Source: a virus
IMG/VR virus record: IMGVR_UViG_3300012001_000306
Span: 1-26,932 of that record
Direction: 5' to 3' (one strand)
DNA: 26,932 nucleotides
The notes under the pieces were generated by a model. The model searched no databases. It was not told the DNA's origin and saw only the letters and a list, made by a program, of their open reading frames with translations. How positions within the stretch are numbered: position 1 is the stretch's first letter; the number at the start of each line of letters is the position of its first letter. Shown piece after piece: positions 4,256-22,459 of this stretch. The translations under genes were made by a program, and so were the position numbers.

Positions 4256-5644
4256 ATGACTTTTGATTCCCTTCCCATCGCCGCGATTGCCACCGCGCCC
4301 GGACGCGGCGGCATCGGCGTGGTGCGCATTTCCGGCAAGAACCTCGACGCGGTGATTGCGGCGGTGTGCGGACTGGCGCCCGGCGCACAACTGGTGCCGC
4401 GCCACGCGACCTACACCACCTTCCTCGACCGCGAGCGCGGCATGATCGACCAGGGCCTCGCGCTCCATTTCAAGGCGCCGCACTCGTACACCGGCGAAGA
4501 CGTGCTCGAGCTGCAGGGCCACGGCGGACCGGTGGTACTGCAGATGCTGCTGGCGCGCTGTCTGGAAGCCGGCCAGGAGATCGGCTTGCGGCTGGCGCAG
4601 CCCGGTGAATTCACGCATCGGGCATTCCTGAATGACAAGCTCGACCTGACGCAGGCGGAAGCCGTGGCCGACTTGATCGAAGCATCGACCGAAGCGGCCG
4701 CCAAATCGGCGTCGCAATCGTTGTCCGGCGTGTTTTCCAAGGCGATTCACGATCTGGTGGCGCAAGTGATTCACCTGCGGATGCTGGTGGAAGCGACGCT
4801 TGATTTTCCCGAAGAAGAAATCGATTTTCTGGAAAAATCCGATGCACGCGGACAGCTGGTTCGGATCCGCGCGGTGTTGACGCAGATTTTCAATCAGGCG
4901 GCACAAGGTGCGATGCTGCGCGACGGCTTGAACATCGTCCTGGCCGGCCAACCGAACGTCGGCAAATCGTCATTGCTGAACGTGCTGGCCGGCTCGGAAG
5001 TCGCGATCGTGACGCCGATTGCCGGCACCACGCGCGACAAAGTGACCGAGACGATCCAGATCGAAGGCGTACCGGTCAACATCATCGACACCGCCGGCAT
5101 CCGTGACGTAGCCGACGCCGGCGATGAAGTCGAGCGCATCGGCATCGAGCGCACCTGGGCTGCTGTCGCGCACGCTGATGTGATCTTGCATATCCTCGAT
5201 GCCAGCATGGGACCGACCCGCGCCGATGAACAATTCATCGACCGCTTTCCGACCAACGTGCCGGTGATGCGAGTCTGGAACAAGATCGATTTGTCCGGCC
5301 ACAAACCCGGCGTCGATCGCATGGAAGACGCGACCCACGTCTATTTGTCGGCCACCGACCGCGTCGGCATCGACTTGCTGCGCAATGAATTGCTGCGGCT
5401 GGCGGGCTGGCAGCAAACCGGCGAATCGCTATACCTGGCACGCGAACGGCACTTGATCGCGCTCAAAGCGGCACGCAATCATCTCGATGCGGCGGAACAG
5501 CTCGCTGCGCAAAGCGACCAGGCGCTCGACCTGTTCGCGGAAGAGTTGCGGCTGACGCAAGAACGTCTCGGCAGCATCACCGGCGAGTTCTCATCGGACG
5601 ATTTGCTTGGTGTCATTTTCAGCCGGTTCTGTATCGGAAAATAA
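4256..5644 (+). CDS. mnmE: tRNA modification GTPase MnmE (TrmE/ThdF)
   Basis: This 462-residue GTPase works with MnmG to modify wobble uridine (cmnm5U) in tRNA. The N-terminal tetrahydrofolate-binding domain starts [21 protein letters not shown]-like and includes [26 protein letters not shown]. The inserted G domain has GQPNVGKSS (about residue 231), the DTAG motif near residue 280, and NKID. The protein ends with the universal FCIGK whose cysteine carries the formyl-transfer chemistry, so it is complete. The last 18 bp are the left att core of the adjacent island, yet the reading frame is preserved, as in SGI1 insertions into thdF. Confidence 0.98.
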
Positions 5645-5675
5645 ATGGTCGCCAAACGACGACCAACTTTGCCAA
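5627..5675. repeat. attL: duplicated mnmE 3' end and following sequence
   Basis: TTCTGTATCGGAAAATAA (5627-5644) closes mnmE and matches the SGI1 attB position and much of its sequence. From 5639 to 5675 the sequence is identical to 22423-22459. It contains an inverted repeat TGGTCG / CGACCA separated by 8 nt (5646-5665), a plausible integrase core site. Confidence 0.85.
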
Positions 5676-5808: not shown

Positions 5809-7041
5809 ATGCCTAAAGCAGCGATTCCCCTCAATGACACGCGCATCAAAGCGCTGAAGGCCAAAACCAAGCGATACATGGTGGCCGACGGCGGCGGCCT
5901 GGTCCTTGAAGTCATGACGTCGGGTACCAAGATCTGGCGCTATCGCTTCTCGTTGCACGGCAAGCAGCAGCCGCTTGTGACGATCGGCAATTACCCGGCC
6001 ATCGGGCTGCAAGACGCCAGGGAGCGCGCGCGGCGCTACGCCGAGATCGTGGCGAGCGGGGTCTCCCCGGTGGCGGACGCCAAAAAGGACCGCGGCGCAT
6101 TGAAAACGCTCGACTCGGTCCGGGCATTCGCCGATTACTGGCATCAATCCGAAATCGCCAACAAATCCGAGTCGTACAGCAAGATCACTCGGCGCGTGCT
6201 GGACAAAGACATATATCCGTCCATCGGCAATAAGGCGCTGGCTGACGTGAACGCCGGCGATGTATTGGCGATATGCGACCGCATCAAGGGCCGCGGCGCC
6301 CCGCAAGCCGCGCTGGTTGCCCGCAACGTGGTCAAGCGCATGTACGAGTTCGCCATCTCGCGCCAGGCGGTGACTACCAACCCGGCGCAGCAACTGGTCG
6401 CCCGATTCATTGCGACTCCCCAAAGCCGCACCCGGGTATTGACGCCGGACGAGATCGGCAAGGTATTGCGCGCGGTGTACGCGTCCGACATGGGCCGCAA
6501 TTACAAATTGGCGCTGCACCTGTTGACCATCACCATGGTGCGCAAGTCGGAATTGATCGAGGCCGAGTGGTCGGAGTTCGATTTTGATGCCGCGGTCTGG
6601 CGCATTCCCGCGGAGCGCATGAAAAAGGACAAGGAGCACTGGATACATTTATCGGCGCAGGCCCGCGCCATGTTTGCCGAGCTCCGGACCCTCTCGCACA
6701 GCGAGCGCTACGTGTTTCCGATGGGTCGCAGCCACGGAGACAGGCCGATCGCCAAATCAACACTCAACCAGGCCGTACGGGCAATGAATGCAGACATACA
6801 GCACTTCGTATTGCATGACTTCCGGCGCACCGCCTCGACGCACCTGCATGAAATGGGGCAATCCTCCGACGCGATCGAGAAGGCGCTGGCGCATTCGATC
6901 AAGGGGATCAAAGGCGTCTACAACCGCGCCGAATATGCCGACGAGCGGCGCAAGATCCTGCAGCTGTGGGCGGATTTTGTGGACGCGCAGATCAATGAGG
7001 GCCGCAAGGTCGTGATCGGAAATTTCGGCCAAGCGGCTTGA
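5809..7041 (+). CDS. Tyrosine integrase, P4/DUF4102 type
   Basis: This 410-residue site-specific recombinase should catalyse integration at mnmE and, with an excisionase, excision. The N-terminal DUF4102 arm-binding domain (residues about 8-95) includes the family's YMVADGGGLVLEVMTSGTKIWRYRF. The catalytic domain shows arginine 245 (MVRKSE), the HxxR box HDFRR (His336, Arg339), His362 in LAHSIKG, and the nucleophile Tyr371 (GVYNRAEY). All expected catalytic residues are present, so it is probably active. It lies 164 bp inside attL with arm-type repeats immediately upstream. No clear Shine-Dalgarno precedes the ATG. Confidence 0.95.
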   Translation: MPKAAIPLNDTRIKALKAKTKRYMVADGGGLVLEVMTSGTKIWRYRFSLHGKQQPLVTIGNYPAIGLQDARERARRYAEIVASGVSPVADAKKDRGALKTLDSVRAFADYWHQSEIANKSESYSKITRRVLDKDIYPSIGNKALADVNAGDVLAICDRIKGRGAPQAALVARNVVKRMYEFAISRQAVTTNPAQQLVARFIATPQSRTRVLTPDEIGKVLRAVYASDMGRNYKLALHLLTITMVRKSELIEAEWSEFDFDAAVWRIPAERMKKDKEHWIHLSAQARAMFAELRTLSHSERYVFPMGRSHGDRPIAKSTLNQAVRAMNADIQHFVLHDFRRTASTHLHEMGQSSDAIEKALAHSIKGIKGVYNRAEYADERRKILQLWADFVDAQINEGRKVVIGNFGQAA

Positions 7042-7070
7042 TGAATCAATAACTATTGACAGGAATAAAC

Positions 7071-7913
7071 ATGGGTAACGACCAGGTGGCAACGCAGCAT
7101 CATCAGACCTTTGACGGTATCAGGCAACTGACTGAGGACGGATCTGAGTTTTGGTTTGCACGCGACCTCGCGCCGTTGTTGGAATATCAGGACTGGCGCA
7201 ATTTCCTGCAGGTTATTGAAAAAGCGAAGACAGCGTGCCAATCCTCTGGATATGCCATCGCCGACCATTTCGGTGAGGTCACCAAAATGGTCGACCTCGG
7301 GTCTGGCGCGAAGCGAGGTATCACAGACTATGAGTTGTCCCGCTACGCCTGCTACCTGATCGTGCAGAACGGTGATCCGTCCAAACCAGTGATCGCCAAT
7401 GGGCAAACTTACTTCGCCCTACAAACCCGCCGGCAAGAACTTGGCGACGAGAAGGTCTTTGCCCAGCTAACGGAAGACGAGCGGCGCCTGATGCTACGCG
7501 GCGAGCTGGTCGAGCACAACAAGGCCCTGTCAGCCGCCGCCAAGAATGCCGGCGTCGTGACGGCGCTGGATTATGCAGTCTTCCAGGATCACGGCTACAA
7601 GGGACTGTATGGCGGCCTCGGGGCGAAGGATCTCCACGCACGCCGTGGGTTGAAGAAGAGTGAGAAAATTCTCGACCGCATGGGTAGCACTGAACTAGCC
7701 GCCAACCTGTTCCGCGCTACGCAGACCGAAGAAAAACTGAAACGTGATGCGGTTCGCGGAAAATATCAAGCCAACCAGACACACCACGAGGTAGGGGCAA
7801 AAGTTCGCCAAACAATCAAGGAACTGGGCGGCACGATGCCGGAAGCATTACCGACACCAGAAAAAAGTATCAAGCAAATCGAACGCGAAAAGAAAAAAAT
7901 AGGGAATGAATAA
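7071..7913 (+). CDS. dinD: DNA damage-inducible protein D (DinD) homologue
   Basis: This 280-residue protein matches DinD over its full length. Landmarks are FWFARDLAPLLEYQDWRNF near the start (a Bro-N/KilA-like fold segment), LSRYACYLIVQNGDPSKPVIA, FALQTRRQEL, HGYKGLYGGL, and GSTELAANLFRATQTEEKL. In E. coli, DinD is SOS-induced and reported to inhibit RecA filament activities. Here the ATG at 7071 has AGGA upstream and begins 29 bp after int, suggesting co-transcription. No LexA box (CTG-N10-CAG) is visible in the gap, unlike the E. coli gene. Carriage by an integrative element suggests a role in sensing or damping the SOS response, which is inference. Confidence 0.93.
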   Translation: MGNDQVATQHHQTFDGIRQLTEDGSEFWFARDLAPLLEYQDWRNFLQVIEKAKTACQSSGYAIADHFGEVTKMVDLGSGAKRGITDYELSRYACYLIVQNGDPSKPVIANGQTYFALQTRRQELGDEKVFAQLTEDERRLMLRGELVEHNKALSAAAKNAGVVTALDYAVFQDHGYKGLYGGLGAKDLHARRGLKKSEKILDRMGSTELAANLFRATQTEEKLKRDAVRGKYQANQTHHEVGAKVRQTIKELGGTMPEALPTPEKSIKQIEREKKKIGNE

Positions 7914-7968: not shown

Positions 7969-8018
7969 GAAAGAACATTGCAATGACTAACCGAAAATTG
8001 TGGTACCTTTTGTTTGCG

Positions 8019-8252
8019 ATGAAAAAATACATCGTCGAGTTTAGTAGCTCGAAGACACACAGCGGACATCCGCGCAATGCGGTTTTTTTTCGTCCGTTCA
8101 CATCTGATCCTCCTTCAATGGCGGGCTGGGTGGGGAGCCTTCGGGCTGCCGGTGGCTGTGTGTGCCGGTCTACTAACCCCATCCAGTTCCGCCACCCTTA
8201 TTTGGCAATAAGGGGCGGATTAACCGCACGCAAAGGAGGCTCATATGCCTAG
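8019..8252 (+). CDS. Ash-like small leader ORF
   Basis: This 77-residue ORF has a C-terminal half (SMAGWVGSL..., VCRSTNPIQFRHPYLAIRGGL, RKGGSYA) that resembles the short Ash-type proteins found in P4-like prophages and satellites; I recognise the pattern, not a function. The ATG at 8019 is one option; an upstream in-frame ATG at 7929 or 7980 is also possible. The reading frame runs across an intrinsic terminator (8070-8090). Its end holds the AAAGGAGG ribosome site and overlaps the next start by 8 nt, so its translation could affect both transcription and downstream translation. Confidence in expression is moderate. Confidence 0.45.
   Translation: MKKYIVEFSSSKTHSGHPRNAVFFRPFTSDPPSMAGWVGSLRAAGGCVCRSTNPIQFRHPYLAIRGGLTARKGGSYA
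8070..8090 (+). terminator. Intrinsic terminator inside the leader ORF
   Basis: CCGC (8070-8073), a 5-nt loop, GCGG (8079-8082) and eight T residues (8083-8090). A possible promoter about 80 nt upstream would make the RNA between them a short transcript of the kind P4-like elements use for immunity by premature termination. Confidence 0.6.
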
Positions 8253-9648: not shown

Positions 9649-9744
9649 ACAATTTAAAGCGGCACCTAGGCTGATCCCCGAAAACCCGGCTTCCCTTACC
9701 GGCCTGGTGCTGCTCCAACACTCAAGGGCGTCGAAGGGACGTTG

Positions 9745-10806
9745 ATGAATGCGAGCGCGAAGTATTTGATGTTGCATGACGCTGCGGCGAAAGCGGGATG
9801 TAGTGATGCCACCTTCATTCACTTTGGTGCCGAAGGCGATATACCAGTTTATGTGCTGGTCGATGACTGGCTTGTCGGACAATGGCCACCTGGCGAAAAA
9901 GGGAAAACCGATCCAGTAGCCGTAAGGAATATTAGCGAAGAGCTCGCCCGAATAGACCCTTCCGCATTGAGCCGAATAGCGGAAGACGCGGCAGCGATCA
10001 TTTCTATTGTATGGGTTGCAAAAGCCATCGACGGCGACGGAAGGGATGAAGTAATACCCGTCTCTCCGATCAAACGCTTGAACTCCAAAAAAGGCACGCC
10101 TGCTGCATTTGCTCCGGTCGAAATTTGCGCCAATGAATGCAAATTCGTCGTTCTGGAAAAGGACATTGATGCACTGATTACCGAGCAAGCAGCACGGCAA
10201 CACAACGGCAGTTCAAAATATTTTACGATTAAACAGGCTGCGCAAAAAATATCTACTTCGCTTCCAATAGCAGACGAGAAAAAAAGACGAGAAGCTGAAA
10301 AGCGGTACAGGAAGCTTCTGTCTGATGAATTATTGGATGGAAATTTGGTCGGAGTGGACCCGGAAAATTATTACCCAATAGACAAAAATAAACCAGGTTC
10401 TGTCCTGGGCTTGCAACGGGCGCTAATCCATTATGGGGACCTAAGTAACTGGGCCTCAGGTAAACGGCTGCAAATTAATTTCGAGGTGGCCGCGGCCCCG
10501 CTAGCGGATAAAACCGATCTGGTGAAAGAAACTAAGAAGGATAGAACCCCCACTGAATTCATCAATGTTTTCAGTACGCTTATCAAGGAAATAAAGGCCC
10601 GTGCTTTAACAAAGGGCAAGTCGTTCGATTGCAACAACATGCCTGGAATTAAGAAAGATTTGTGGGAGGTAGCGAAGAGTATAGATCCGGTTTTTCGTAA
10701 TTTGGCGTTGCGCACTTTCAGTGATTATCAAAAGCAAAGTGGGCTTTGCAAGTTCAAGCGCGGCTCCCGGTCTGGAGATTTTTACGCAAAGCTGTTCGCG
10801 GATTGA
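9745..10806 (+). CDS. Hypothetical protein of the early region
   Basis: This 353-residue ORF starts at the ATG at 9745, 5 nt after GAAGGGA (a TTG at 9742 is in frame). The N-terminal segment (YLMLHDAAAKAGC, FIHFGAEGDIPVYVLV) resembles the opening of phage-borne regulatory proteins in other betaproteobacterial prophages. The middle has a charged helical stretch ADEKKRREAEKRYRKLLSDELL. The C-terminal 80 residues (INVFSTLIKEIKARALTKG ... LCKFKRGSRSGDFYAKLF) look like a separate small domain. The gene is clearly more AT-rich than the chromosome, pointing to transfer. No function can be assigned. Confidence 0.75.
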   Translation: MNASAKYLMLHDAAAKAGCSDATFIHFGAEGDIPVYVLVDDWLVGQWPPGEKGKTDPVAVRNISEELARIDPSALSRIAEDAAAIISIVWVAKAIDGDGRDEVIPVSPIKRLNSKKGTPAAFAPVEICANECKFVVLEKDIDALITEQAARQHNGSSKYFTIKQAAQKISTSLPIADEKKRREAEKRYRKLLSDELLDGNLVGVDPENYYPIDKNKPGSVLGLQRALIHYGDLSNWASGKRLQINFEVAAAPLADKTDLVKETKKDRTPTEFINVFSTLIKEIKARALTKGKSFDCNNMPGIKKDLWEVAKSIDPVFRNLALRTFSDYQKQSGLCKFKRGSRSGDFYAKLFAD

Positions 10807-10960
10807 ACCAAATCAAACAACAAATAGACGAAGACACCACAACGCAAAGCCGCATGGATATTGACTTCGCCTATTTCTACGCCCATTACGCCAATTTTCA
10901 TTAGATAAAATTTTCTCTATCGTTCAGCCATCGACTACCAACACACTTGGAGTGTGCAAG

Positions 10961-11191
10961 ATGGCAAAGAAAGCATACCAAGCACCGCAACCGCCGACAG
11001 TCCTACCGAAAGACGGCGTATCCCGATTCAATCAGCTTGAGCCGTTCCTGCCCTTCAGCAAAGAGACCTGGCGCAAGCTGGTCCAAGCCAAGAAAGCACC
11101 TCAGCCAATCAAAATTGGTCTGCGCTGCACGGTGTATCAAAACCCCGAAGTGCACCGCTGGTTATCTGATCCCACAAATTACCGAGCCTGA
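10961..11191 (+). CDS. AlpA-family transcriptional regulator / excisionase-like protein
   Basis: This 76-residue protein has the AlpA/MerR-like winged-helix pattern: RFNQLEPFLPFSKETWRKLVQ for the helix-turn-helix, APQPIKIGLRCTVYQNPEVHRWL for the wing and second helix. In P4-like elements and PICIs, AlpA proteins activate early promoters or act as excisionase. The ATG at 10961 has TTGGAGTG upstream; an in-frame GTG at 10952 is less likely. The preceding 150 bp are AT-rich and non-coding and probably hold its promoter, though no clean -35/-10 pair is seen. Confidence 0.85.
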   Translation: MAKKAYQAPQPPTVLPKDGVSRFNQLEPFLPFSKETWRKLVQAKKAPQPIKIGLRCTVYQNPEVHRWLSDPTNYRA

Positions 11192-11199
11192 GGGGTCCT

Positions 11200-11463: not shown

Positions 11464-14097
11464 ATGGCGACTGTCACCCAAGTAATCGATCAGATGCTCG
11501 GCTGCAAAATGCCGCCACTTCCGGCAGGGCATCCGATCCTAGACGGCAAATACCATCGCTTTGGCCCCCAGAAAAAGGCCTGGTACATTTTGCGTGAGGT
11601 CACGCTGGCGTCAGGCAAAAGCGTCATTACTGGCGCGTTCGGGATTTTCCAGGGCGGAAACCGGAATACGGTGCCGGTAACGATGGATACAGAGAATTTT
11701 TCGGATGACGATCGCGCGGAGCTCTCGCGCAAACAACGCGACTACGAAGCCAAGGAAGCGGCCGCCAAGCGACGCGGCGCAGAACTTGCTGCCAACCGTG
11801 CAACCGATCAATCTGGCAAGGCCAGCGCGACCGTTGGCAGCGCTCATCCGTACTTGACACGCAAACAGATAACGGCGGAGAAAGTCCGAATTGCCAATGA
11901 CGGGATGTTGCTGGTCCCGATGATTCATTACACGCTGCGCGAATCGCGCCTGGTTGGTCTGCAAAAGATCGATGCCGACGGCAACAAGCGCTACAGCAAG
12001 GACATGGACAAGCCCGGCGCAGCCTGTCTGTTAGGCGCGCCTGCCGGCGCACCCATCATCGCAATCGGCGAAGGTTACGCCACCTGCCGCACCGTTCGCA
12101 TGGCTATGGCAGACGAATTGCCGGTAGCGGTGGCCTTCGACGCAGGAAACCTGCTGGCGGTCGCCAGGGTGCTGCGGCGCGACTTCGAGAATGCGCACCT
12201 CGTTTTTCTCGCGGATGACGATTACCAGCTTGAAAGGCGCTTCACAGAGCGCTTGCGCGAAGATTTCAATGTCTCCGCTCCTGTTCCGATCGATGGCGCA
12301 ACACATGCCGTCCTTTCGGATAAGGGTGACCAGGTACAGGCATCTGCAAACTGGCGGCAGGATCCGCATGGCATCGACTACATTGAGGCCAATGTCAGCT
12401 CCGGCCGCCTGATCCGCACATACAAATATGAAAATGCCGGCGTGTCGCGGTGCCACGCTGCCGTGAAAGCCGTGGGGAACGCATCCTTGGTCGTGCCGAA
12501 ATTCGTGGATCGCGGGGGTAACAAGTGGACCGACTTTAACGATCTGCATGTCGAGGAGTCGCTCGACGTTGTCACCGCTCAGATCAAAGCGGCCCTTGAC
12601 GCCGCGATGCTCTACAAAATCTCTCCCCTTCCCTCTGGTGCGGATGTTGCGGAGCCAGAGATGCAGTCGCATCGCTTTGACAATATTCCTCTCGATGACT
12701 CCCCACCGCCCCCTGGCAGAGATGGTGACGCGCTCGGCCTTTCTTCTGGGGATGAGGGGGAAAGCCGCAAGGGCAAGAAGGAAAGACCCAAAAAGGAATA
12801 TGGCCCGGAACATTGGGACCAAGTCGACTACGTTTTGAAGAACTTCATCCTTGTCTACGGCGAGGATCTGGTATGGGACGTCTCGCAGCGCATGCTGATG
12901 AAAATTTCTTCCATGCGAATCATTGTCCAAAATAACGACGTGATGAGATTCTGGACTGGTGAGCAGCGTCGGTGGGTCTTGAAGAAGAACATTGAATTCG
13001 ACCCTTCCGAGAGACCCAGTCCGGCGACGAGCGGACCCACTGCCACCGTGAATCTGTTCGGCGGTTGGAAGATGACACCGAAGCAAGGGAAGTTTCTGAA
13101 AATTCAAACCTTACTTTTGCATCTGTGTGACGGCGATGAGGACCTGATGCTTTGGGTGCTGCGCTGTCTGGCCTACCCATTGCGGCATCGAGGCGCGAAG
13201 ATGGAAACGTCGATCATCATGCACGGCGATGAAGGTTCCGGCAAAAATCTCTTCTTCGAAAAAATCATCAAGAAAATTTACGGCGAGTACGGCTACGTGA
13301 TCGGCAATGCCCAGCTGGAATCCCAGTTCAACGACTGGGCGTCGATGAAGCTGTTCATGGTGGCCGACGAGGTGGTCACGCGTAGCGAACTGAAGCAAAT
13401 GAAGGGCAAGCTGAAGTATCTGGTGTCCGGCGATTCGATCATCGTCAATCCGAAAGGCTTGCCGGAACACAGTGAAGCGAACCACATCAACTTTGTCTTT
13501 CTGTCGAACGAGCTGCAGCCGCTCGCGCTGGACAAGACCGACCGCCGCTACCTGGTGATCTGGACGCCGCCGGCACTGTCGAGGGAATTCTACGTCGAGG
13601 TAGCGCAAGAGATCGAAACGGGCGGTATAGCGGCCTTTTACCACTACCTGCTGCATGGGGTGGACATGGGCGATTTTAATGAGCATACGAAGCCCGTCTA
13701 CAACGACGCCAAGGACAATCTCATCGAGAAGAGCCTGTCGCCTCCTGAGCGCTTCTATCGCGACTGGTCGCGTGGTTTCCTCCCCCTTCCGGTTATAACG
13801 TGCGGCGTCAGCCAGCTGTACGACGCGTACCGGGTCTGGTGCGAGAAGTCCGGGGAAGCACGTTATATCTCGCTGACCGTCTTCAGCCCGACTGTCGAAC
13901 GATACGCGGGGGAGGCCCTGGTCAAAAAGCTGATCAAGTACGAGCTCGGCAGTTCAATCAAGCAACGCCACGTCTTTTTGATCGGCAAGCAGCCGGATGG
14001 CAAGTCTTTTGCCGATTGGGCAGCCGAGGCATCGTCGCTCTTCGAGAGCCATTTGAAGGCGTATCGCAGTCGGTCATCGCAAAATTGTGATGAGTAA
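11464..14097 (+). CDS. Toprim primase - SF3 helicase replication protein
   Basis: This 877-residue protein is the element's replication initiator and helicase, of the P4-alpha / D5-like kind. The N-terminal part (residues 1-190) holds a primase-associated region. The Toprim domain follows with IAIGEGYATCRT (about residue 200) and VFLADDD (about 248). An acidic/basic linker (about 415-440) leads to the DUF5906/SF3 helicase with Walker A HGDEGSGKN (about 586), Walker B-like LFMVADEVV (about 629) and motif C NFVFLSNE (about 675). The C-terminal 120 residues are a winged-helix-like DNA-binding tail. The ATG at 11464 directly follows the previous stop. The iterons immediately downstream are its likely binding sites. 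Confidence 0.92.
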   Translation: MATVTQVIDQMLGCKMPPLPAGHPILDGKYHRFGPQKKAWYILREVTLASGKSVITGAFGIFQGGNRNTVPVTMDTENFSDDDRAELSRKQRDYEAKEAAAKRRGAELAANRATDQSGKASATVGSAHPYLTRKQITAEKVRIANDGMLLVPMIHYTLRESRLVGLQKIDADGNKRYSKDMDKPGAACLLGAPAGAPIIAIGEGYATCRTVRMAMADELPVAVAFDAGNLLAVARVLRRDFENAHLVFLADDDYQLERRFTERLREDFNVSAPVPIDGATHAVLSDKGDQVQASANWRQDPHGIDYIEANVSSGRLIRTYKYENAGVSRCHAAVKAVGNASLVVPKFVDRGGNKWTDFNDLHVEESLDVVTAQIKAALDAAMLYKISPLPSGADVAEPEMQSHRFDNIPLDDSPPPPGRDGDALGLSSGDEGESRKGKKERPKKEYGPEHWDQVDYVLKNFILVYGEDLVWDVSQRMLMKISSMRIIVQNNDVMRFWTGEQRRWVLKKNIEFDPSERPSPATSGPTATVNLFGGWKMTPKQGKFLKIQTLLLHLCDGDEDLMLWVLRCLAYPLRHRGAKMETSIIMHGDEGSGKNLFFEKIIKKIYGEYGYVIGNAQLESQFNDWASMKLFMVADEVVTRSELKQMKGKLKYLVSGDSIIVNPKGLPEHSEANHINFVFLSNELQPLALDKTDRRYLVIWTPPALSREFYVEVAQEIETGGIAAFYHYLLHGVDMGDFNEHTKPVYNDAKDNLIEKSLSPPERFYRDWSRGFLPLPVITCGVSQLYDAYRVWCEKSGEARYISLTVFSPTVERYAGEALVKKLIKYELGSSIKQRHVFLIGKQPDGKSFADWAAEASSLFESHLKAYRSRSSQNCDE

Positions 14098-14353
14098 CCC
14101 ATCACATCAGTTTGAACCCATCACATCGGGAACCCGCATGAAATATAGCGATGTGATGGGTGTGATGGGTGTGACGAGTTTTTTTGGGCTCCATGTGCGC
14201 GCGCACGAGTGAAAACGACGGAAAGGAAGCAAGAGCAATGAATTATTTTTATCAGAAAACAGAAATAACCCATCACACCCATCACACCAGTAACAAAGTG
14301 AGTAAACACAAGGCTTAGCGGTGTGATGGGTTGTGTGATGGGTGTGATGGGTT
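14096..14353. repeat. Palindromic iteron clusters, candidate replication origin
   Basis: At least nine copies of the 9-10 bp unit TGTGATGGG(T) lie in two clusters. The left cluster has inverted copies at 14096-14108 and 14115-14127 and direct copies at 14150-14170. The right cluster has inverted copies at 14267-14288 and direct copies at 14321-14353. Each cluster forms an 11-12 bp stem (14117-14127 with 14150-14160; 14277-14288 with 14320-14331). An AT-rich stretch (about 14240-14268) lies between. Position directly after the primase-helicase matches the origin layout of P4-like replicons. Confidence 0.75.
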
Positions 14354-14384
14354 GGATAAGAAGTAACTTTCCAGAAGAAGAAAT

Positions 14385-14651
14385 ATGAAAAAGACCAATC
14401 AGTGTTTTGTTTGCGGCCAGCGGTTCTCGATGTGGCGCAAACGCGCGCCAACAATTTGCAGACCATGCGGCGAACTGGCCGCTGAAATCGCAAAGGTGGC
14501 GGGGCCTGAATTTGTTAATGAAAAAAGCATCGTGGCCGCCCGCAATCGGAATCGGCTCATCAAACCAGTTTTAGAGGCGTTCACAGTCAGGCTAATTCCA
14601 GCCGCCGCACCATCGCCGGCGCATTCCGGCATCAATGAAAGGAAATCATGA
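14385..14651 (+). CDS. Small zinc-finger-like protein
   Basis: This 88-residue ORF begins MKKTNQCFVCGQRFSMWRKRAP and has two CxxC pairs (Cys7/Cys10 and Cys25/Cys28), the layout of a small zinc ribbon. A basic, mostly helical region follows (VAARNRNRLIKP). AGAAGAAG precedes the ATG at 14385 and the stop overlaps the next start by 4 nt. Such proteins in phage elements are usually transcriptional activators or nucleic-acid binders; the precise role here is unknown. Confidence 0.7.
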   Translation: MKKTNQCFVCGQRFSMWRKRAPTICRPCGELAAEIAKVAGPEFVNEKSIVAARNRNRLIKPVLEAFTVRLIPAAAPSPAHSGINERKS

Positions 14652-15131
14652 AATTCGAAACGTTTAGTTTTGCCCACTTCTTTGGCATCGGTAGGCCGTC
14701 ATCTGCGGAGACGACAAGTCAGCGGGCCGAAGTCAAGTCAGGATCGAAATCCGCCAACGTAACCGGCTCGAGCCCGGCAACAAAACCTGCAGCCGCATCT
14801 GGCTCGAGCAGTCGGACTCAAAAGCCGACCGCTGCGCCAACATCGGCGACGACTTTCCACCACTTGCTTGACGCATCGCTGAACGCGCGACGCTTCCACC
14901 AGGCGCCCATGAGTTCCGCCTCCGGACCAAGGGCGCCTCGGCCGATGACTACCGCAGAAGCGGCAGCGGCCATCATTTCTGCTGGCGAGAAAGCCCGTGG
15001 GAGCGCGAGATCCCCGGCGCGCGCGGGAACGGGTCCGCGACATGATGTCGCGCGCGCGCGTCGACCGGGCGGCCGGCGCCGCTGCCGCAATCATCACTGC
15101 TGCGGCCAGAGCCCGTGGCGAATCTATTTAA
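14648..15131 (+). pseudogene. Frameshifted phage structural-type ORF
   Basis: The frame opens MKFETFSFAHFFGIGR and runs through an Ala/Ser/Thr-rich linker to TTAEAAAAIISAGEKARG. After about 15010 the frame turns into low-complexity RARRPGGRRRC, while the +1 frame becomes protein-like: ARDPRRARERVRDMMSRARV then DRAAGAAAAIITAAARARGESI with a stop at 15129-15131. The two frames even share a repeated motif (EAAAAIISAGEKARG / GAAAAIITAAARARG). The region is rich in GCGCGC runs. A one-base loss or a programmed shift would explain it. The pattern recalls N-terminal scaffold-like proteins in phage head modules, but that is a weak resemblance. Confidence 0.5.
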
Positions 15132-15151
15132 CCCAACAGGAGAAGCACATC

Positions 15152-15844
15152 ATGTCGAAAATTTTATTGAAACAAGCCGCTGCCGCTCTCGCAACCGCCA
15201 AGGAGGCGCTGGCGCAATTGCAGCAACAGCAGCAACGATGCCAGGACGCGGTGGCAAATGGCGTCGGATACGCCGAACAGATCGAAAACCTCTTCCGCCA
15301 GCAGGCCGAGCTCGAAGGTACCGGCTTTCTGACCGATGTGCCGGCCGACACGTCCGCGGTGCGCAGTCAGATCGCAGACCTTCAGGCGCGAACCTCGGTG
15401 GCGCGTATGAATGCGCAGGCGGCTGAGGCTGCAACAGGCTTGCTGCTGCCCCGCATAGAGGAGGCGAGAGATAACGTCACTGCCTGCTGGGAAGAATACA
15501 ACACCACACTCGCTGGCAGCGTGAAGTCGATCTACGATGAAAGCGAAGGCGCATATCACCGGGCGGTGCACGATCTGAAAAGTGCCCTGGCGCGCATGAG
15601 TGCGAGCGCTCTCCTGTATGGCAACTTGATTGGAGCGAAAGGGCTTACATCGATCACGGACAGTATGGTCATGTCGCTTTCCGGTAAGGGGACCGGGCTA
15701 ACGCCATCTGGAGTGGTCGTCAAGACTACAGCAACCGGCCAATATCATCTGGATCTTGATTTGTGGATGGGCCTTGGAAGTATGACCAGCGCGGCATGGG
15801 ATGGCGTCCGGGCAGACCTGGTTAAGCAAGGAGCTCAGTTCTGA
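15152..15844 (+). CDS. Coiled-coil hypothetical protein upstream of tape measure
   Basis: This 230-residue ORF starts at the ATG at 15152 with AGGAG 8-12 nt upstream; the longer in-frame opening back to 14648 is an artefact of the preceding frameshift. The N-terminal part is a long Ala/Gln-rich helix with a run of five glutamines (ALAQLQQQQQRCQ), continuing heptad-like to about residue 130. The C-terminal part (LIGAKGLTSITDSMVMSLSGKG ... YHLDLDLWMGLG) is more compact. Its position 66 bp before a tape-measure gene suggests a tail or virion-assembly role; no family was recognised. Confidence 0.65.
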   Translation: MSKILLKQAAAALATAKEALAQLQQQQQRCQDAVANGVGYAEQIENLFRQQAELEGTGFLTDVPADTSAVRSQIADLQARTSVARMNAQAAEAATGLLLPRIEEARDNVTACWEEYNTTLAGSVKSIYDESEGAYHRAVHDLKSALARMSASALLYGNLIGAKGLTSITDSMVMSLSGKGTGLTPSGVVVKTTATGQYHLDLDLWMGLGSMTSAAWDGVRADLVKQGAQF

Positions 15845-15910
15845 TCAATATCAACCAGAAAATGCGCGACTTCATTGGCGCGCACCCGATCGATCAATAG
15901 GAGGATTTCG

Positions 15911-17809
15911 ATGTCGAATGATTTCAAAATTACGATTTCTGCTGTGGACCACACTACGGCTATCGTGAAGAAAATAAATGCATCAATGGACAAGATGATG
16001 GCGCCGATTACGCAGGCGAAGGCATCTGTCACTGCTTTCAAAAAAGAAGTTTCCGACAATACCGCCGTGAAAAGTCTGTTAAGCGTGAAGAATGCTGCCG
16101 GCGACGTAGCAGAGAAAATCGCGTCAATCATGGCGCCGCTGGCGGCGGTGGTCGGCATCGGCTCAATTGCCGGCATTGCGGCGCTCGCCACCGAATGGGG
16201 CAGAGTTGGCTTTCAAGTTACCAACGCCGCGAACGCGATCGGAATCTCTGCGGGCCAGTTGCAGTCGTTGCGCGGGGCGGCAGGGATGGCGGGTATATCT
16301 GCGGGTGAGCTGGACGGCGCCCTTAAGTCAATCGGCGACACCTGGCAAAACGCGCAGTTCGGCCGCAACCAGGACGCGCTGATGATGATGAACAGACTGG
16401 GCATCAGCGTGCACCGCCTGAAAGACGGATCGGTCGATGCCGCGCGCGGCTTGATGGATATTTCAAGAGCGATCCAGGGGAAGAACGTCGAAGTGCAGCG
16501 CCTGATCGCCAACTCACTAGGCGCGGGCTCGATGCTGCCGCTGTTGCAAAAGGGGCCGGCTGCGATCGAGGCGTTTCAGAAAAAATATGAATTGCTGGCC
16601 GGTGTGATGAGTGGTTCGGCATTGAATGCGGCGTCGCAATTCCAGGAGCAAATGATCCTGTTGCATGGATCGATTGACGGCCTAAAAAATAGGATTGGCG
16701 AAAAGCTGATACCGATCTTGTCGCCGTTGATCGGCCAGTTGACCAACTGGATCGCGGCAAACAAGGATTTGATCGCTACCAACGTCGGGGAATTTGTTCG
16801 TGAAGTGGGCGATTGGCTGAAAACTGTCGACTTCAAGAAAGTGGCGACCGACATCAAGGATTGCGTCGGCAGCGTCATCGATTTCGTCAACAAGATCGGC
16901 GGCTGGAAAGTGGCGCTTATTGGGCTGATCGTGGTCATGAATGGCAGCTTGATTGCCAGTTTATTGAACCTTGGCATTACCTTCGTCACGATTGGCGGCC
17001 GACTGACAGCGTTGAGTGCCACCGCAATACCTGCGGCGGTTAAGGCTATAGGAGCGCTGGACGCGGCAGCAGTTATTGGCCAGGGCAGCATGGTCGGATT
17101 AACGGCCACAATCGGAGGTCTTATTGGCAAGCTGGGTATGCTTGGCCTCGCATGGGAGGCCGGTAGTCTACTTGGCGAATATGTGGTCAATCCGCTGATA
17201 AACAAAACGGTGCAGGCGGTCAGCGGCGACAAGGATGCCACGCTCGGAACAAAAATATACGACTTGACGCATCCTGCGGGCAGTCTAACCGCGAGCGGAA
17301 AAATTAAACAACTTCCACTTGGCATCCGGAGCAATAACCCGCTGAACATGATGCCTGGTGGCCGAGAAGCAGTCTATGGCTCGCCTGAAGCCGGCATCGG
17401 TGCTGCAGTCGCAAACTTGCGCAAGAATTACGCCGGCCTGACATTGGCAGGGATTGTCAATAAGTGGTCACCGCCCAATGCGGCCGGCAACAGCGCGCTC
17501 AAGAATGCTAATTACCTGAGTGGTCTATCGAGAGAAACTGGCGTTGCGTCCGATCAGATGCCTGACCTGAATAATGCCGCGCTGGTTTCGCGCTTGGTGA
17601 AGGCGCAGATCAAGCAAGAGAACGGGCAGCAGCCTTACAGCGATAGCCAAGTCAGTGCCGGGGTCGAGAAAGGCATGCAGCAAGAAGTACATGTCAAGGT
17701 CACGCTCGCCAATGCGCCGGCCGGCACAACGGCCAGCGCCAAGAATAGCGCCGGCTCGATGATGCCGGTCCGCGTCGCCTATTCAATGCCGACCACGGTG
17801 ATGCCATAA
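15911..17809 (+). CDS. Phage tail tape-measure protein with muramidase-like domain
   Basis: This 632-residue protein has the composition and layout of a tail tape measure. A helical N terminus (AVDHTTAIVKKINASMDKMM) is followed by hydrophobic Gly/Ala-rich segments (IMAPLAAVVGIGSIAGIAALA), a central region with AIGISAGQLQSLRGAAGMAGIS and DGLKNRIGEKLIPILSPLIG, and membrane-like helices at about 330-430. Residues about 470-590 carry a P5/lytic-type segment: LGIRSNNPLNMMPGG, SPEAGIGAAVANLRKNYAGLT, IVNKWSPP, IKQENGQQPY. The start is the ATG at 15911 with TAGGAGG upstream; an in-frame TTG at 15875 is less likely. It is complete, not decayed. Confidence 0.82.
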   Translation: MSNDFKITISAVDHTTAIVKKINASMDKMMAPITQAKASVTAFKKEVSDNTAVKSLLSVKNAAGDVAEKIASIMAPLAAVVGIGSIAGIAALATEWGRVGFQVTNAANAIGISAGQLQSLRGAAGMAGISAGELDGALKSIGDTWQNAQFGRNQDALMMMNRLGISVHRLKDGSVDAARGLMDISRAIQGKNVEVQRLIANSLGAGSMLPLLQKGPAAIEAFQKKYELLAGVMSGSALNAASQFQEQMILLHGSIDGLKNRIGEKLIPILSPLIGQLTNWIAANKDLIATNVGEFVREVGDWLKTVDFKKVATDIKDCVGSVIDFVNKIGGWKVALIGLIVVMNGSLIASLLNLGITFVTIGGRLTALSATAIPAAVKAIGALDAAAVIGQGSMVGLTATIGGLIGKLGMLGLAWEAGSLLGEYVVNPLINKTVQAVSGDKDATLGTKIYDLTHPAGSLTASGKIKQLPLGIRSNNPLNMMPGGREAVYGSPEAGIGAAVANLRKNYAGLTLAGIVNKWSPPNAAGNSALKNANYLSGLSRETGVASDQMPDLNNAALVSRLVKAQIKQENGQQPYSDSQVSAGVEKGMQQEVHVKVTLANAPAGTTASAKNSAGSMMPVRVAYSMPTTVMP

Positions 17810-17857
17810 CCGGCTTCAGATTAATGGCGTCATCACGACACTCTCAAAGGACACACT

Positions 17858-18247
17858 ATGAGTAGATTTTATCCAGCTGCCTTCGTCGGAGATTTTCCAG
17901 ATGCGCGGGCAGCTCTTCGTAGGCTGGGGACAGTAGACGGAGAAGCGGACGCATGCTTGGCGAACATCCGCGTCTGCCGTAAAGAGCCGGTCCTATTGGA
18001 AATATTCATGAATGATCCGGCTGATAGGTTGCCAGGCTTGCGCCTCCGGAAGACAGCGGTGGGGCTGATGGAGCGCCCTGATGGATCAATTGGATTGTGG
18101 GTTGCCATGATCGGACATTTGAAAAACACGCGCGAGGCTGCTTTTCTTGATGCTCTCGGTGATTTGCTATCTAGCAGCATCAACGACCCGCCAAGGGTCG
18201 ATGTGTTTGAATTGCCTGGGAACGTAGTCATTAACACTGTGAATTAA
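17858..18247 (+). CDS. Hypothetical protein, paralogue of the 18557-19003 gene
   Basis: This 129-residue ORF has AAAGGA before its ATG. It is not a family I know, but it aligns with the gene at 18557-19003: both carry F[VI]GDF, a conserved Ala-x-x-Cys-Leu, a [RG]KE[PN] turn, RPDG/RPCG followed by GLWVAM / GLWFAM and HL, and end PRVDVF / PTVDVF. It therefore belongs to a duplicated pair specific to this tail region. Possible roles are tail assembly chaperone or virion accessory, both inferred only from position between the tape measure and minor tail protein Z. Confidence 0.7.
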   Translation: MSRFYPAAFVGDFPDARAALRRLGTVDGEADACLANIRVCRKEPVLLEIFMNDPADRLPGLRLRKTAVGLMERPDGSIGLWVAMIGHLKNTREAAFLDALGDLLSSSINDPPRVDVFELPGNVVINTVN

Positions 18248-18275
18248 ATCCGCGCACCTTCGGCCATGTACAAAC

Positions 18276-18295
18276 CGCGCCACTTGGGTGGCGCG
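18276..18295. other. Perfect 8-bp hairpin without T run
   Basis: CGCGCCAC (18276-18283), loop TTGG, GTGGCGCG (18288-18295), in the gap between the first paralogue and the 74-residue ORF. No T run follows; it may be an RNA processing or pausing site. Confidence 0.5.
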
Positions 18296-18330
18296 CCACC
18301 GATCAATTAGAAAGCATTGCCTCTCACACC

Positions 18331-18555
18331 ATGCGGCCAACAACCGAAAACAAGAAAACTTCCCGTCCGGACCTGCTCACAAAGTTAATTCGTGCGGCCA
18401 TCAAGCGCGCAAAGGCAGCGACGCCTGGCGCGAAGATGGTATGTACGCTTTCTTTTCAAAGAAGGCGCTACCCATTAACAGTTAATCCAGATGGCGAGGT
18501 TATTGTTTTTGATAGACGCGGCAACAGGATCGTGACCGTGATTATGGAGAGATAG
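18331..18555 (+). CDS. Small basic hypothetical protein
   Basis: This 74-residue ORF is strongly basic in its first half (KLIRAAIKRAKAATPGAK) and beta-like in its second (PLTVNPDGEVIVFDRRGNRIVTVIMER). No Shine-Dalgarno is obvious before the ATG at 18331. It ends 1 bp before the following gene start. It separates the two paralogous genes, so duplication did not yield simple tandem neighbours. Function unknown. Confidence 0.55.
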   Translation: MRPTTENKKTSRPDLLTKLIRAAIKRAKAATPGAKMVCTLSFQRRRYPLTVNPDGEVIVFDRRGNRIVTVIMER

Positions 18556-18556
18556 G

Positions 18557-19003
18557 ATGACATACACATTCAAAGTGCATACGTCTGCACGGATTGACCA
18601 GGTCATCGACAACGTGTATGGCAAGTTCGTGCCGTGCAACTTTATTGGTGATTTCAAAGATCCATTTGCCGCCGTTGGAAGTATTGGCATCATCGGACCT
18701 GAAGCCGCTCTTTGCCTGACAGGCATTTCCATCGGCAAGGAAAATCCCTTTTTCTTCCCACTCATTTTGGAAGATCCGGATTGTGTCTTATCCGACTTTC
18801 CTATTTCATTAACCGCAGGCGTGCTATTGCGCCGGCCATGCGGAACTGTAGGTCTTTGGTTTGCCATGCTGAACCATCTGAGCGACACCCATGATGAGGC
18901 CCTATCGCGCGTGATCGAGGATGCGCTATCTGGACTTCTTTTCGGCGGGCCGACAGTGGACGTATTCCAAATTAGCGAGCAGGAAGGGGTAACCCTGCAA
19001 TGA
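18557..19003 (+). CDS. Hypothetical protein, paralogue of the 17858-18247 gene
   Basis: This 148-residue ORF is longer than its paralogue mainly by an N-terminal extension (MTYTFKVHTSARIDQVIDN). Shared positions with 17858-18247 include FIGDF, CLTGI, GKENPF, the LLRRPCGTVGLWFAMLNHL block and the PTVDVFQIS end. The divergence is high, so the duplication is old or the two were acquired separately. GGAGAGATAGG precedes the start. The stop overlaps the minor tail protein Z start (ATGA), tying it to the tail operon. Confidence 0.72.
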   Translation: MTYTFKVHTSARIDQVIDNVYGKFVPCNFIGDFKDPFAAVGSIGIIGPEAALCLTGISIGKENPFFFPLILEDPDCVLSDFPISLTAGVLLRRPCGTVGLWFAMLNHLSDTHDEALSRVIEDALSGLLFGGPTVDVFQISEQEGVTLQ

Positions 19004-19587
19004 TCGATCTTAAAGTGATATCGAACCTGAATGGCATCACTGCCAGCCTAACAAGATTTGCTACCGACCAGCAGAAAGCCGTTGTACGCGCACTGAACAA
19101 AACAGCAGAACAAGCGAGGACGGCCGCATCGCCAGCGGTGCGGTCTGCCGGCTACAACATCAAGGCCAGCGCAATTAAGAAAAGCTTTGCAATCAGCAGG
19201 GCGTCAGGCAACAGCCTCGTTGTCGTATTGAAGGCGACTGGTGCACCGATAGGGTTGATCAACTATAGTGCGCGCCAGACAAAGAGCGGCGTCGGCGTTA
19301 AGGTCAAGAACGGAAAAACAATACTGAGGCACGCTTTCATCGGGACGATGAGCAACGGTCACATCGGAGTGTTCGAGCGCGTAGGCGCTGCCCAAATCAA
19401 GGGGGTTACGCGAGTAGTTGCTGGGCGCCGGCTGCGCGTGAATAAGCCGATCAAGGAATTGTTCGGGCCTTCGATACCGGTCGCCTTAGGTAACGCCGTT
19501 GTTGAGAAGGCGATCATGACTCTGATCAAAGAGAAGTTTCCAAAGATTCTCGCGGCCGAATTGAACTTCCTTCTCCTAAAGGGGTGA
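19000..19587 (+). CDS. Prophage minor tail protein Z family
   Basis: This 195-residue protein fits the lambda gpZ-like minor tail protein family. It shows the N-terminal AVVRALNKTAEQARTAASPAVR, the YNIKASAIKKSFAISRAS segment, ARQTKSGVGVKVKNGK in the middle, HAFIGTMSNGHIGVFER and IKELFGPSIPVAL near the C terminus. In lambdoid phages gpZ acts at the head-proximal end of the tail for DNA connection. It is translationally coupled to the previous gene. No other tail tube or terminator gene is recognised nearby. Confidence 0.82.
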   Translation: MIDLKVISNLNGITASLTRFATDQQKAVVRALNKTAEQARTAASPAVRSAGYNIKASAIKKSFAISRASGNSLVVVLKATGAPIGLINYSARQTKSGVGVKVKNGKTILRHAFIGTMSNGHIGVFERVGAAQIKGVTRVVAGRRLRVNKPIKELFGPSIPVALGNAVVEKAIMTLIKEKFPKILAAELNFLLLKG

Positions 19588-19604
19588 TGCGGGTGCAGTG
19601 TGAA

Positions 19605-19675
19605 AAATCAACGGGTCCCATCTGGAGACTTCCAACTTGCGGGGGCTACGACACGCGAGAATTTTTTAGCCGGTG
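19605..19675 (+). other. Candidate cos / packaging site upstream of small terminase
   Basis: This non-coding stretch has GGGTCCC (19613-19619), then a G-run core TTGCGGGGGCTACGACACGCG (about 19637-19657) and ATTTTTT. Similar G-rich motifs with a following T run lie just before small-terminase genes in cos-type prophages. The assignment rests on location and motif memory only. Confidence 0.4.
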
Positions 19676-19728
19676 GATTTTTAACTTAGTAAAATTTACC
19701 GTCAATTGGTGAAAAGGTGAAGTGTAAT

Positions 19729-20322
19729 ATGAGCGATCAGATCAGGTGGTTGACCAAATCGCAGTTTGCAGCGGAGCAGGGATGGAGCCCAAGCTACATC
19801 ACCAAACTCAAACAACAAGGGCGGCTTGTCCTAGACGCAAAACAAAAGCAGATCGATGCCGGTGCGACATTGGCATTGCTTGCCAACACTGCCGATCCCG
19901 CGAAAGCGCAGCTTCGAAAACATCATGAAGGCACTCGCGTTCAAAAGCATGTCGACAAACATATTGCCCATGACGCAGACCTCGGAGGCGATCCAGCCGG
20001 CGCCGCCAGCGATCCAAAGTATTGGGACAGCAAGACCAGGCGCGAAACTGCGCTTGCGCAGTTGGCCGAGATTGAGCTGAGCAAGAAGCGCGGGGAACTG
20101 TGCGATCGTGCCAGCGTGGAAGCAACGGCCTTTGCGACAGCGCGCATTTTTCGAGACACTCTCCTCGGCTTGCCCGTGCAACTGGCTCCTGTGTTTGCGT
20201 CCATGACGGATGCATTTAACATTGAAGTCAAGCTGCGCGACGCACTCAGACAGGCTTGCTCCGACTTCGCAAAGATGAAGGCAGCCGATTTGAAGAGGGT
20301 AATGGAACAATCGTCGGACTGA
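19729..20322 (+). CDS. Terminase small subunit (Nu1-like)
   Basis: This 197-residue protein has an N-terminal winged helix-turn-helix WLTKSQFAAEQGWSPSYITKLK as in Nu1, which recognises the cos site. A charged linker follows, then a helical dimerisation region TRRETALAQLAEIELSKKRGEL and the C-terminal ARIFRDTLLGLPVQLAPVFA typical of the family. The start is the ATG at 19729, 8 nt after AAAGGTGA; an upstream in-frame GTG at 19717 is less likely. No large terminase follows, as in PICI satellites, which use their own TerS to redirect a helper's TerL. Confidence 0.85.
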   Translation: MSDQIRWLTKSQFAAEQGWSPSYITKLKQQGRLVLDAKQKQIDAGATLALLANTADPAKAQLRKHHEGTRVQKHVDKHIAHDADLGGDPAGAASDPKYWDSKTRRETALAQLAEIELSKKRGELCDRASVEATAFATARIFRDTLLGLPVQLAPVFASMTDAFNIEVKLRDALRQACSDFAKMKAADLKRVMEQSSD

Positions 20323-20497
20323 CACCCATTTGGCAGGATCTTGAAAAATTTGGCGCGACAAATGCCCTTCGGGCGGGGGCGGGGGGCAGTGCAGCGGGCA
20401 TCATGGAACCAGTATGCGGTAAAGGCGGAGGAGGCGTAGCGTCACCACCGGTATGGGGTGTCCCATATCATTTTTGAGGCAATGACATAGAGGTCCT

Positions 20498-20785: not shown

Positions 20786-20795
20786 TTGGAGGGGA

Positions 20796-20918: not shown

Positions 20919-21105
20919 AGTCCGCATGGGAACGTCTTATGGATTGGCGTAACGACTTGCTTTTGTGAAAATTTGGCGAGAGAGATTTTCCCCTCGCGCC
21001 TATCGATCCATGTGAAGGCGAGTGGTACACTCGAGTAACGTCGAGGGGTTTCGCCCTCGTATCGCGTCGGGAAGGGTTTTGGCTTCCTGTCATGGGGATG
21101 CGGCA
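20919..21105 (+). promoter_or_regulatory. VapBC45-like promoter and structured leader
   Basis: An extended -10 (TGGTACACT; TACACT at 21026-21031) without a good -35 is followed by two hairpins, CGAGGG/CCCTCG (21042-21059) and GGAAG/CTTCC (21070-21087), before the antitoxin start at 21106. GGGGAT serves as a ribosome site. Toxin-antitoxin operons are usually autoregulated, and these inverted repeats are candidate operators. Confidence 0.5.
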
Positions 21106-21813
21106 ATGGCACAATTGGGGATCGGTATCTATACGCTGATGGAAGCCGCGCGGTTAATAGGCGGTGACCGGAGAGCTATCGGTCGTTGGTTGTATGGCTA
21201 CGACTATACTGGCCGTACAGGGGAAAAGCGGGTTCGCCGTCACTCAGACCCTTTATGGCTGCCTCAGTACGATGCGAACGAGTTTGGTGAAAAAGTAATC
21301 GGCTTTAGCGACCTACTTGAGTTACGTGTAGTGCGGGAGTTCGTTCGTCGCGGCATCCCTCTGCTGGTGATTCGCCACTGCTTGGAGACAGCTCGCGAAA
21401 TGTTCGGAGCTGAATATCCATTTACAAGCCGTCGCTTTGTAACCGACGGAGAGACCATTTTTTTGGAGGCAATGCGTGCCGGAGCAGATGAGCTTGAAAT
21501 GCTCAACCTGCGGTCTCGGCAATACACCTTCCGGGAAATAATCAAGGACTCTCTCTACACCGGGATTGAGTACAACGACGGAATTGCTCGTAGGTGGTAT
21601 CCGGAACAACGACGGCGTGCTGTAGTGGTTGATCCGGCTCTGCAGTTCGGCCATCCTGTCATAGAGGAGTCTGGCATTCCGACCGCTTCCCTTTATGCAA
21701 GCTACTTGGCAGAAGACAAGAACCGAGCGGTTGTTGCGCGACTTTTTGAGATCGCACCGAGACAGGTCGAGGCCGCAGTGCGGTTTGAAGAAAAACTTCG
21801 GCAAGCCGCTTGA
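21106..21813 (+). CDS. VapB45-like antitoxin (HTH + DUF433)
   Basis: This 235-residue protein has an N-terminal MerR-like helix-turn-helix (GIGIYTLMEAARLIGGDRRAIGRWL) and a C-terminal DUF433-type segment (DPALQFGHPVIEESGIPTASLYA ... ARLFEIAPRQVEAAVRFEEKL). Length and layout match M. tuberculosis VapB45 (Rv2018, DUF433 antitoxin). It would bind and neutralise the toxin encoded next and repress the operon. The ATG at 21106 is chosen because earlier in-frame codons overlap the promoter hairpins. It overlaps the toxin start by 4 nt. Confidence 0.85.
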   Translation: MAQLGIGIYTLMEAARLIGGDRRAIGRWLYGYDYTGRTGEKRVRRHSDPLWLPQYDANEFGEKVIGFSDLLELRVVREFVRRGIPLLVIRHCLETAREMFGAEYPFTSRRFVTDGETIFLEAMRAGADELEMLNLRSRQYTFREIIKDSLYTGIEYNDGIARRWYPEQRRRAVVVDPALQFGHPVIEESGIPTASLYASYLAEDKNRAVVARLFEIAPRQVEAAVRFEEKLRQAA

Positions 21814-22217
21814 AATTCGTATTCGACAATAACTTACCGCCCTGCTTGGCAAGGGGGGTGGCCGAGCTTTCGAAATTTGATCCGAAGGTGAATAAAGTGA
21901 TTCACCTTCGAGACATGTTTGCCGCAAATACACCCGATTTAGTCTGGTTGAATGCCCTTGTAACTGAGGGCAGCTGGATTGTGGTTTCAATTGATCGATT
22001 CAAAAAATCGTCGGCCGAGCGTGAAATGCTTCGCCAGCAAGGTCTAACGGTCTTTGTTCTCGATCCGCAGTGGAGTAAGCCGTACTGGGTTCAGTCGGCT
22101 CAACTTGTACAGTGGTGGCCAAACATAATGAACGTAGCGAAACTAACGTCAAAGACAGCATTGCGCGTGCCCTGGCGCTACACTAGTAAAAGTACCTTCG
22201 AACAGATCCGCGTGTGA
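21810..22217 (+). CDS. VapC45-like PIN-domain toxin (DUF5615)
   Basis: This 135-residue protein begins KFVFDNNLPPCLARGVAEL, the DUF5615/PIN-like signature with the first acidic residue, then VIHLRDMFAANTPDLVWLNAL and WIVVSIDRFKKSSAEREML containing further acidic residues of the PIN active site. It probably cleaves RNA when free of antitoxin. Translation starts at a TTG (21810) overlapping the antitoxin stop, a coupling that keeps toxin below antitoxin. It is the last gene before the right att site, a usual cargo position. Confidence 0.85.
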   Translation: MKFVFDNNLPPCLARGVAELSKFDPKVNKVIHLRDMFAANTPDLVWLNALVTEGSWIVVSIDRFKKSSAEREMLRQQGLTVFVLDPQWSKPYWVQSAQLVQWWPNIMNVAKLTSKTALRVPWRYTSKSTFEQIRV

Positions 22218-22354: not shown

Positions 22355-22412
22355 TATTTACGTCAATGCCGTGAAATCGTTACTGGTATTGCCTCTCCTG
22401 CGCATCACTAGC

Positions 22413-22459
22413 TTCTGTATCGAAATAAATGGTCGCCAAACGACGACCAACTTTGCCAA
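22413..22459. repeat. attR: right copy of the mnmE 3' end
   Basis: TTCTGTATCG (22413-22422) and then 37 bp identical to 5639-5675. Compared with the left copy, 2 nt (GA) are missing after TTCTGTATCG, so this copy would not encode the FCIGK end. Weaker similarity continues beyond the core (ATAAATCAAG in both). Confidence 0.85.

Follow-up and report, generated by a model that had tools for sequence, protein, structure and literature searches.

The window analyzed here is the whole IMG/VR record IMGVR_UViG_3300012001_000306, 26,932 bases long. It contains an element of 16.8 kb (5639-22459) inserted at the 3' end of a mnmE gene whose closest counterparts, by tblastn, belong to Oxalobacteraceae. 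The perfect direct repeat that bounds the element sits in a longer repeat of 86 nt (79% identity) and reaches back into the last mnmE codons, with a 2-nt indel. No att-like sequence above background was found at the mnmE ends of relatives, so no empty site was seen. Just beyond the right repeat lies a resolvase/invertase-like fragment on the reverse strand (22532-22749).

Organization of the element

Between the repeats, the element carries its own integrase and replication gene, together with an incomplete set of virion and packaging genes (Table 1). The earlier note had described an att-bounded element with a replication block, a tape measure protein (TMP), a paralogous pair, gpZ and a small terminase subunit (TerS), and both the repeats and the profile matches bear this out.

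Table 1. Features of the window, with the evidence for each assignment; L210, L274, L284 and L290 are related elements from other genomes or contigs
Feature	Position	Strand	Evidence
mnmE, chromosomal; 3' end is the integration site	4256..5644	+	tblastn to Oxalobacteraceae mnmE, ≤79% identity
attL, perfect 37-nt direct repeat	5639..5675	+	
Tyrosine integrase	5809..7041	+	PF00589 E 1e-22; Arm-DNA-bind_3 E 2e-20
DinD-type BRO-N protein (DNA damage-inducible D)	7056..7913	+	NF008573 above cut-off, E 3e-135
isrK-like RNA	8016..8089	+	Rfam RF01394, 50.5 bits vs gathering 50
C4 antisense RNA	8114..8199	+	Rfam RF01695 E 5e-12
int-alpA RNA	9659..9727	+	Rfam RF02996 E 1e-6
Pre-primase protein	9742..10806	+	phmmer to L274 4.8e-19; weakly L284/L290, 2.8e-4, 7e-5
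AlpA-like excisionase/regulator	10952..11191	+	phmmer: phiAH14b AlpA 4e-4; L274 1e-5
Primase-helicase (DUF5906 / P4 family C-terminal domain)	11464..14097	+	PF19263 E 1e-20; TIGR01613 E 5e-7, below cut-off
Iteron cluster, 8 copies of GTGATGGGT, both strands; possible cis replication region	14098..14384	.	
Small zinc-finger protein, satellite-specific	14385..14651	+	phmmer L274 1.6e-25, L284 1e-9; 52% identity to L274
Scaffold-like protein, C-terminal motif of helper scaffolds; frameshifted in record	14648..~15130	+	motif scan
Long coiled-coil protein, satellite-specific	15152..15844	+	phmmer L284 2e-38, L210 3e-6, L274 2e-4
TMP, C-terminal lysozyme-like domain	15911..17809	+	phrog_2276 E 1e-50; phrog_873 residues 478-627
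Paralogous pair, first copy	17858..18247	+	homologue in L210
Paralogous pair, second copy	18557..19003	+	homologue in L210
gpZ-like tail completion/neck protein	19000..19587	+	PF06763 E 3e-8; phrog_27 'tail completion or Neck1' E 6e-27
TerS	19717..20322	+	phrog_57 E 7e-30; ≤ ~42% identity to annotated TerS
DUF433 antitoxin-like cargo	21022..21813	+	PF04255 E 6e-6
PIN-like toxin cargo	21810..22217	+	PF18478 E 2e-21
attR, perfect 37-nt direct repeat	22423..22459	+	

The isrK-like and C4 RNAs (8016-8199) come straight after the DinD/BRO-N gene. Because C4 RNA regulates an antirepressor in P1-type phages, this segment may act as the immunity switch of the element. Besides the window, Rfam models place C4 RNA in L210 and in the satellite phiAH14b, and int-alpA RNA in L284, L290 and L274, which brings the latter to four members; it was absent from the two full phages scanned. 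The repeat GTGATGGGT occurs nine times in the whole window, eight of them directly 3' of the primase, an arrangement that resembles the P4 cis replication region, and L284 has a smaller repeat set at the equivalent position. The primase itself is 60-78% identical to its nearest counterparts in IMG/VR contigs, and many of the primase-matched phage contigs also have a large terminase subunit (TerL) and a portal, so this gene alone does not mark a satellite. At the right end, the DUF433 and PIN-like pair (21022-22217) is probably toxin-antitoxin or defence cargo.

The open reading frame at 14648-15844, formerly read as a single gene, comprises two: the scaffold-like gene, which is frameshifted and extends from 14648 to about 15130, and the coiled-coil gene (15152-15844). 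The C-terminus of the scaffold-like product matches that of L284 (73% identity over 40 aa) in a second reading frame, indicating that the gene is frameshifted in the record, through either mutation or assembly error. AlphaFold predicts a two-helix hairpin for the coiled-coil protein (pLDDT 73), and neither this model nor that of the paralogous pair (pLDDT 70) gave an informative PDB match. The two copies of the pair are 36% identical to each other over 117 aa (E 9e-27).

Late genes compared with full contractile phages

The reading frames of TMP, gpZ and TerS are unbroken. The TMP frame is open over its full length (15875-17809), with its true start probably at the ATG at 15911, and its product is 57% identical to the TMP of the full contractile phage G398 (IMGVR_UViG_3300029954_000074). 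It measures 632 aa against 549-776 aa in full phages (659 in the nearest one), and since these lengths are similar, altered tail length was rejected as a role; a change in tape length, as the earlier note had envisaged, is unlikely. The gpZ-like protein is 70% identical to that of G398 and, as a member of phrog_27, is a neck/tail-completion protein rather than the tail-tip component once suggested.

Scans with PHROG and Pfam profiles detected no TerL, portal, protease, capsid, sheath or tube in the element, and when the 22 late proteins of G398 were compared with its open reading frames of at least 40 aa, only gpZ and TMP gave convincing matches. The lack of capsid, portal and large terminase noted at first reading is confirmed within these searches.

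G398 carries on one contig a C-terminal primase fragment, gpZ, TerS, TerL, portal, protease, scaffold, capsid, sheath, tube and TMP. It shares the primase-gpZ-TerS order with the element but differs in having TerL, portal, protease, capsid, sheath and tube, and in the placement of its TMP late in the tail operon. The same scheme recurs in related full phages, in which the late region opens with primase, gpZ, TerS, TerL and portal. Nearly all gpZ loci found by profile and with enough flanking sequence read gpZ-TerS-TerL-portal, primase-matched contigs with downstream sequence commonly continue with TerS-TerL-portal, and the contractile phages that encode a TMP homologue have it behind the sheath and tube genes. 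The idea that the gpZ-TerS order proves a non-phage origin was rejected, as this order is normal in related phages.

Given the late position of TMP in full phages, its place in the window is anomalous and unexplained by deletion: TMP lies 5' of gpZ in the element, whereas the phages run from gpZ, TerS and TerL to a distant TMP. The earlier claim of an order reversed relative to a prophage holds for the displaced TMP and fails for gpZ and TerS, which follow the primase as they do in related phages. Its corollary, that simple deletion of one phage does not account for the element, agrees with the position of TMP before gpZ, and related elements with different tail genes strengthen the satellite reading.

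Related elements with a shared core and differing tail genes

Searches with profiles of gpZ and of the satellite-specific proteins led to four further elements of this kind, found in other genomes or contigs, and to one short candidate (L148). L210, a contig of 16.4 kb, encodes an AlpA-like protein, scaffold-like and coiled-coil proteins, a tail fibre (phrog_863, E 4e-38), a homologue of the pair, gpZ, an integrase and two TerS-like proteins, without TerL. L274, located in a genome of the genus of Collimonas sp. OK607, has the zinc protein, a baseplate hub, the coiled-coil protein, a second primase and a broken pair gene, and lacks both gpZ and TerS. L284 adjoins tRNA-Glu and is bounded by a 31-nt att repeat; its 8.8 kb hold integrase, AlpA-like, primase, a short TerS-like N-terminus, zinc, scaffold-like, coiled-coil and gpZ genes and no tail gene. 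L290 occupies the same site with near-identical ends and differs by a cassette of a second integrase and a baseplate hub, which has taken the place of the scaffold-like gene and the greater part of the coiled-coil gene; its TerS, like that of L284, is an N-terminal fragment only. This cassette, with small proteins, occupies 7464-11818 of L290 on the reverse strand, in place of core satellite genes, and L290 may have arisen by insertion of one satellite into another or by recombination between two. The candidate L148 (positions 1-4261, 4.3 kb) encodes a hub, a DNA-circularisation protein, gpZ, TerS and head decoration, arranged differently from full phages, on a contig too short for classification.

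The tail gene thus differs by member: TMP in the window, a tail fibre in L210, a baseplate hub in L274 and L290, and none in L284. All of these genes belong to one contractile phage type, and when the 22 late genes of G398 were compared with each member, only gpZ and/or tail genes were kept. The search for like elements elsewhere, proposed with the first reading, yielded four members and a candidate; among the members, only the window element carries a TMP. The family is small, and its members combine a common core with borrowed tail genes that vary from one to the next. Hubs of the satellites do not cluster together but are interspersed with those of phages (one clade, p-AU 0.038), which suggests repeated capture; for gpZ a single satellite clade gave p-AU 0.058. 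The gpZ genes of L284 and L290 show dN/dS 0.25 at dS 0.23, a sign of evolutionary constraint; this ratio is informative for that pair only, because dS is saturated between most other copies, whose pN/pS resembles that of phage pairs.

Single-protein scans found no close relatives of TMP or TerS in IMG/VR, nor of TMP in genomes; profile scans of IMG/VR with the zinc and coiled-coil proteins gave no matches, and the TerS profile returned only ordinary phages beyond L210 and L148. Within the phage loci examined, no zinc, coiled-coil or pair protein was present, and 50,697 phage records contained neither the coiled-coil nor the pair proteins. The C-terminal pattern of the open reading frame directly 3' of the helper S49 protease also occurs in L210 and L284. 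Among 23,013 scanned open reading frames, ten distinct ones carry this scaffold motif (five helper-type scaffolds, two satellites and three evidently spurious), and the scaffold mimic gene itself was found in none of the phages examined. Some members may be decaying, given the frameshifted scaffold-like gene of the window, the broken pair and missing gpZ and TerS of L274, and the TerS fragments of L284 and L290.

A probable satellite with exchangeable tail genes

The identity of the element as a satellite is well supported by its gene content, and the related elements likewise favor the earlier view of a satellite that contributes tail components together with a TerS of its own and has no head genes. 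We consider it probable that it is a P4/PICI-type satellite of an undescribed family in Burkholderiales-type bacteria, which exploits G398-type contractile temperate phages by redirecting capsids and packaging and carries an exchangeable tail module. The helper is presumably such a phage, although a portal search of three member genomes, run without a positive control, returned no helper prophage.

As predicted from gene families, the element would be excised by its own integrase and AlpA and replicated from the iterons by its own primase. The scaffold-like protein, through its helper motif, probably competes with the helper scaffold in the manner of CpmB, and redirection of capsid assembly by this mimic is plausible. 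By analogy with the TerS family, the satellite TerS would steer the TerL of the helper to satellite DNA. Made in the late phase of the helper, gpZ and the helper-type tail gene product (here TMP) would replace or compete with the helper copies in the particle, the tail gene serving as a module that may be TMP, baseplate hub, tail fibre or absent, depending on the member. TMP would then be incorporated into virions, and we infer that its benefit lies in DNA delivery or in keeping the helper's versions out of the particle, rather than in tail length. A bolder version, in which hybrid virions combine a helper head resized by the scaffold mimic with exchangeable satellite neck and tail parts that decide which cells the DNA enters, is tentative and rather doubtful.

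Among the alternatives, the one that survives best is a true satellite whose tail genes are passive cargo or scars of recombination with helpers, without a role in the particle. The variation of the tail gene among members, its absence from L284 and the arrival of the L290 hub with a second integrase fit this explanation, but the full-length, intact reading frames, pN/pS values similar to those of phage copies and the constant origin of the tail gene in one phage type make it unlikely, if the strongest competitor. Somewhat less probable still is a use of the tail genes as weapons, with extra TMP, hub or gpZ disturbing helper tail assembly or excluding other phages; PICIs and P4-like satellites are known to block tail assembly (Tai, PMC11364771), but a full-length TMP with its C-terminal domain is unlike a truncated inhibitor, and the satellite itself needs tails. 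Least probable is a decayed remnant of one G398-type full contractile prophage, shaped by deletions and a rearrangement that moved TMP: full phages have homologues of primase, gpZ and TMP, joined on one contig in G398, and the scaffold-like gene is frameshifted, but deletion alone cannot put TMP upstream of gpZ, the zinc, coiled-coil and pair genes are foreign to the phages examined, the compact L284 is delimited by an att repeat of its own and lacks a tail gene, and the TMP, gpZ and TerS frames are intact.

The satellite reading finds its closest parallels among P4-like satellites, including Pseudomonas phiAH14b (KU708005, PMC4936722), which share integrase, AlpA, P4-type primase and C4 antisense RNA with the element. 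phiAH14b has one tail gene, for tail assembly protein I, related to that of its presumed helper (PMC4936722), and so provides a precedent for tail genes in satellites. By phmmer, phiAH14b showed no match to the zinc, scaffold-like, coiled-coil, gpZ or TerS proteins of the element, and Pfam scans of the larger open reading frames of the window revealed no psu, sid, delta or epsilon family. The phiAH14b tail gene (L297, 10997-11599) lies in the slot after the replication genes.

With PICIs, the element has in common int, alpA, a replication gene and its own TerS, but its TMP and gpZ are structural genes beyond those of capsid redirection and packaging, and we know of no PICI with a TMP, baseplate hub or tail fibre. 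PICIs that carry TerS and CpmB or Rcm (SaPIs) resemble it in pairing their own TerS with a small protein bearing a helper-scaffold motif (PMC12409344). The action of CpmB depends on a motif that the helper scaffold also has (PMC12409344); in CpmB this motif is RIIK, from which that of the element differs, the latter being shared with five helper-type scaffolds and frameshifted in the window copy. In capsid-forming PICIs (cf-PICIs), as here, the satellite supplies part of the virion (PMC10690885), but they encode capsid, portal, protease and terminase and rely on the helper for the tail, whereas the element, which has no capsid, portal, protease or TerL, would by its genes bring neck and tail parts and take the head. 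MiniFlayer, a satellite of a Streptomyces phage, likewise has a tail part of its own, a tail fibre (PMC10690885), but unlike the element it is a virulent satellite virus that encodes a capsid and packaging genes of its own and lacks an integration module.

No satellite with such a pattern of tail genes was found in the open-access subset of the literature. The swappable tail genes suggest that satellites may alter the particles they steal, and the family would offer a natural test of satellite effects on DNA injection or host range, with the zinc protein, the coiled-coil protein, the scaffold mimic and int-alpA RNA as a marker set for further members. The satellites known so far use complete helper particles, reduce the size of the head, or provide the head and borrow the tail; if the proposed reading is true, a family that joins a helper head to a neck and exchangeable tail components of its own would be the missing combination among them.
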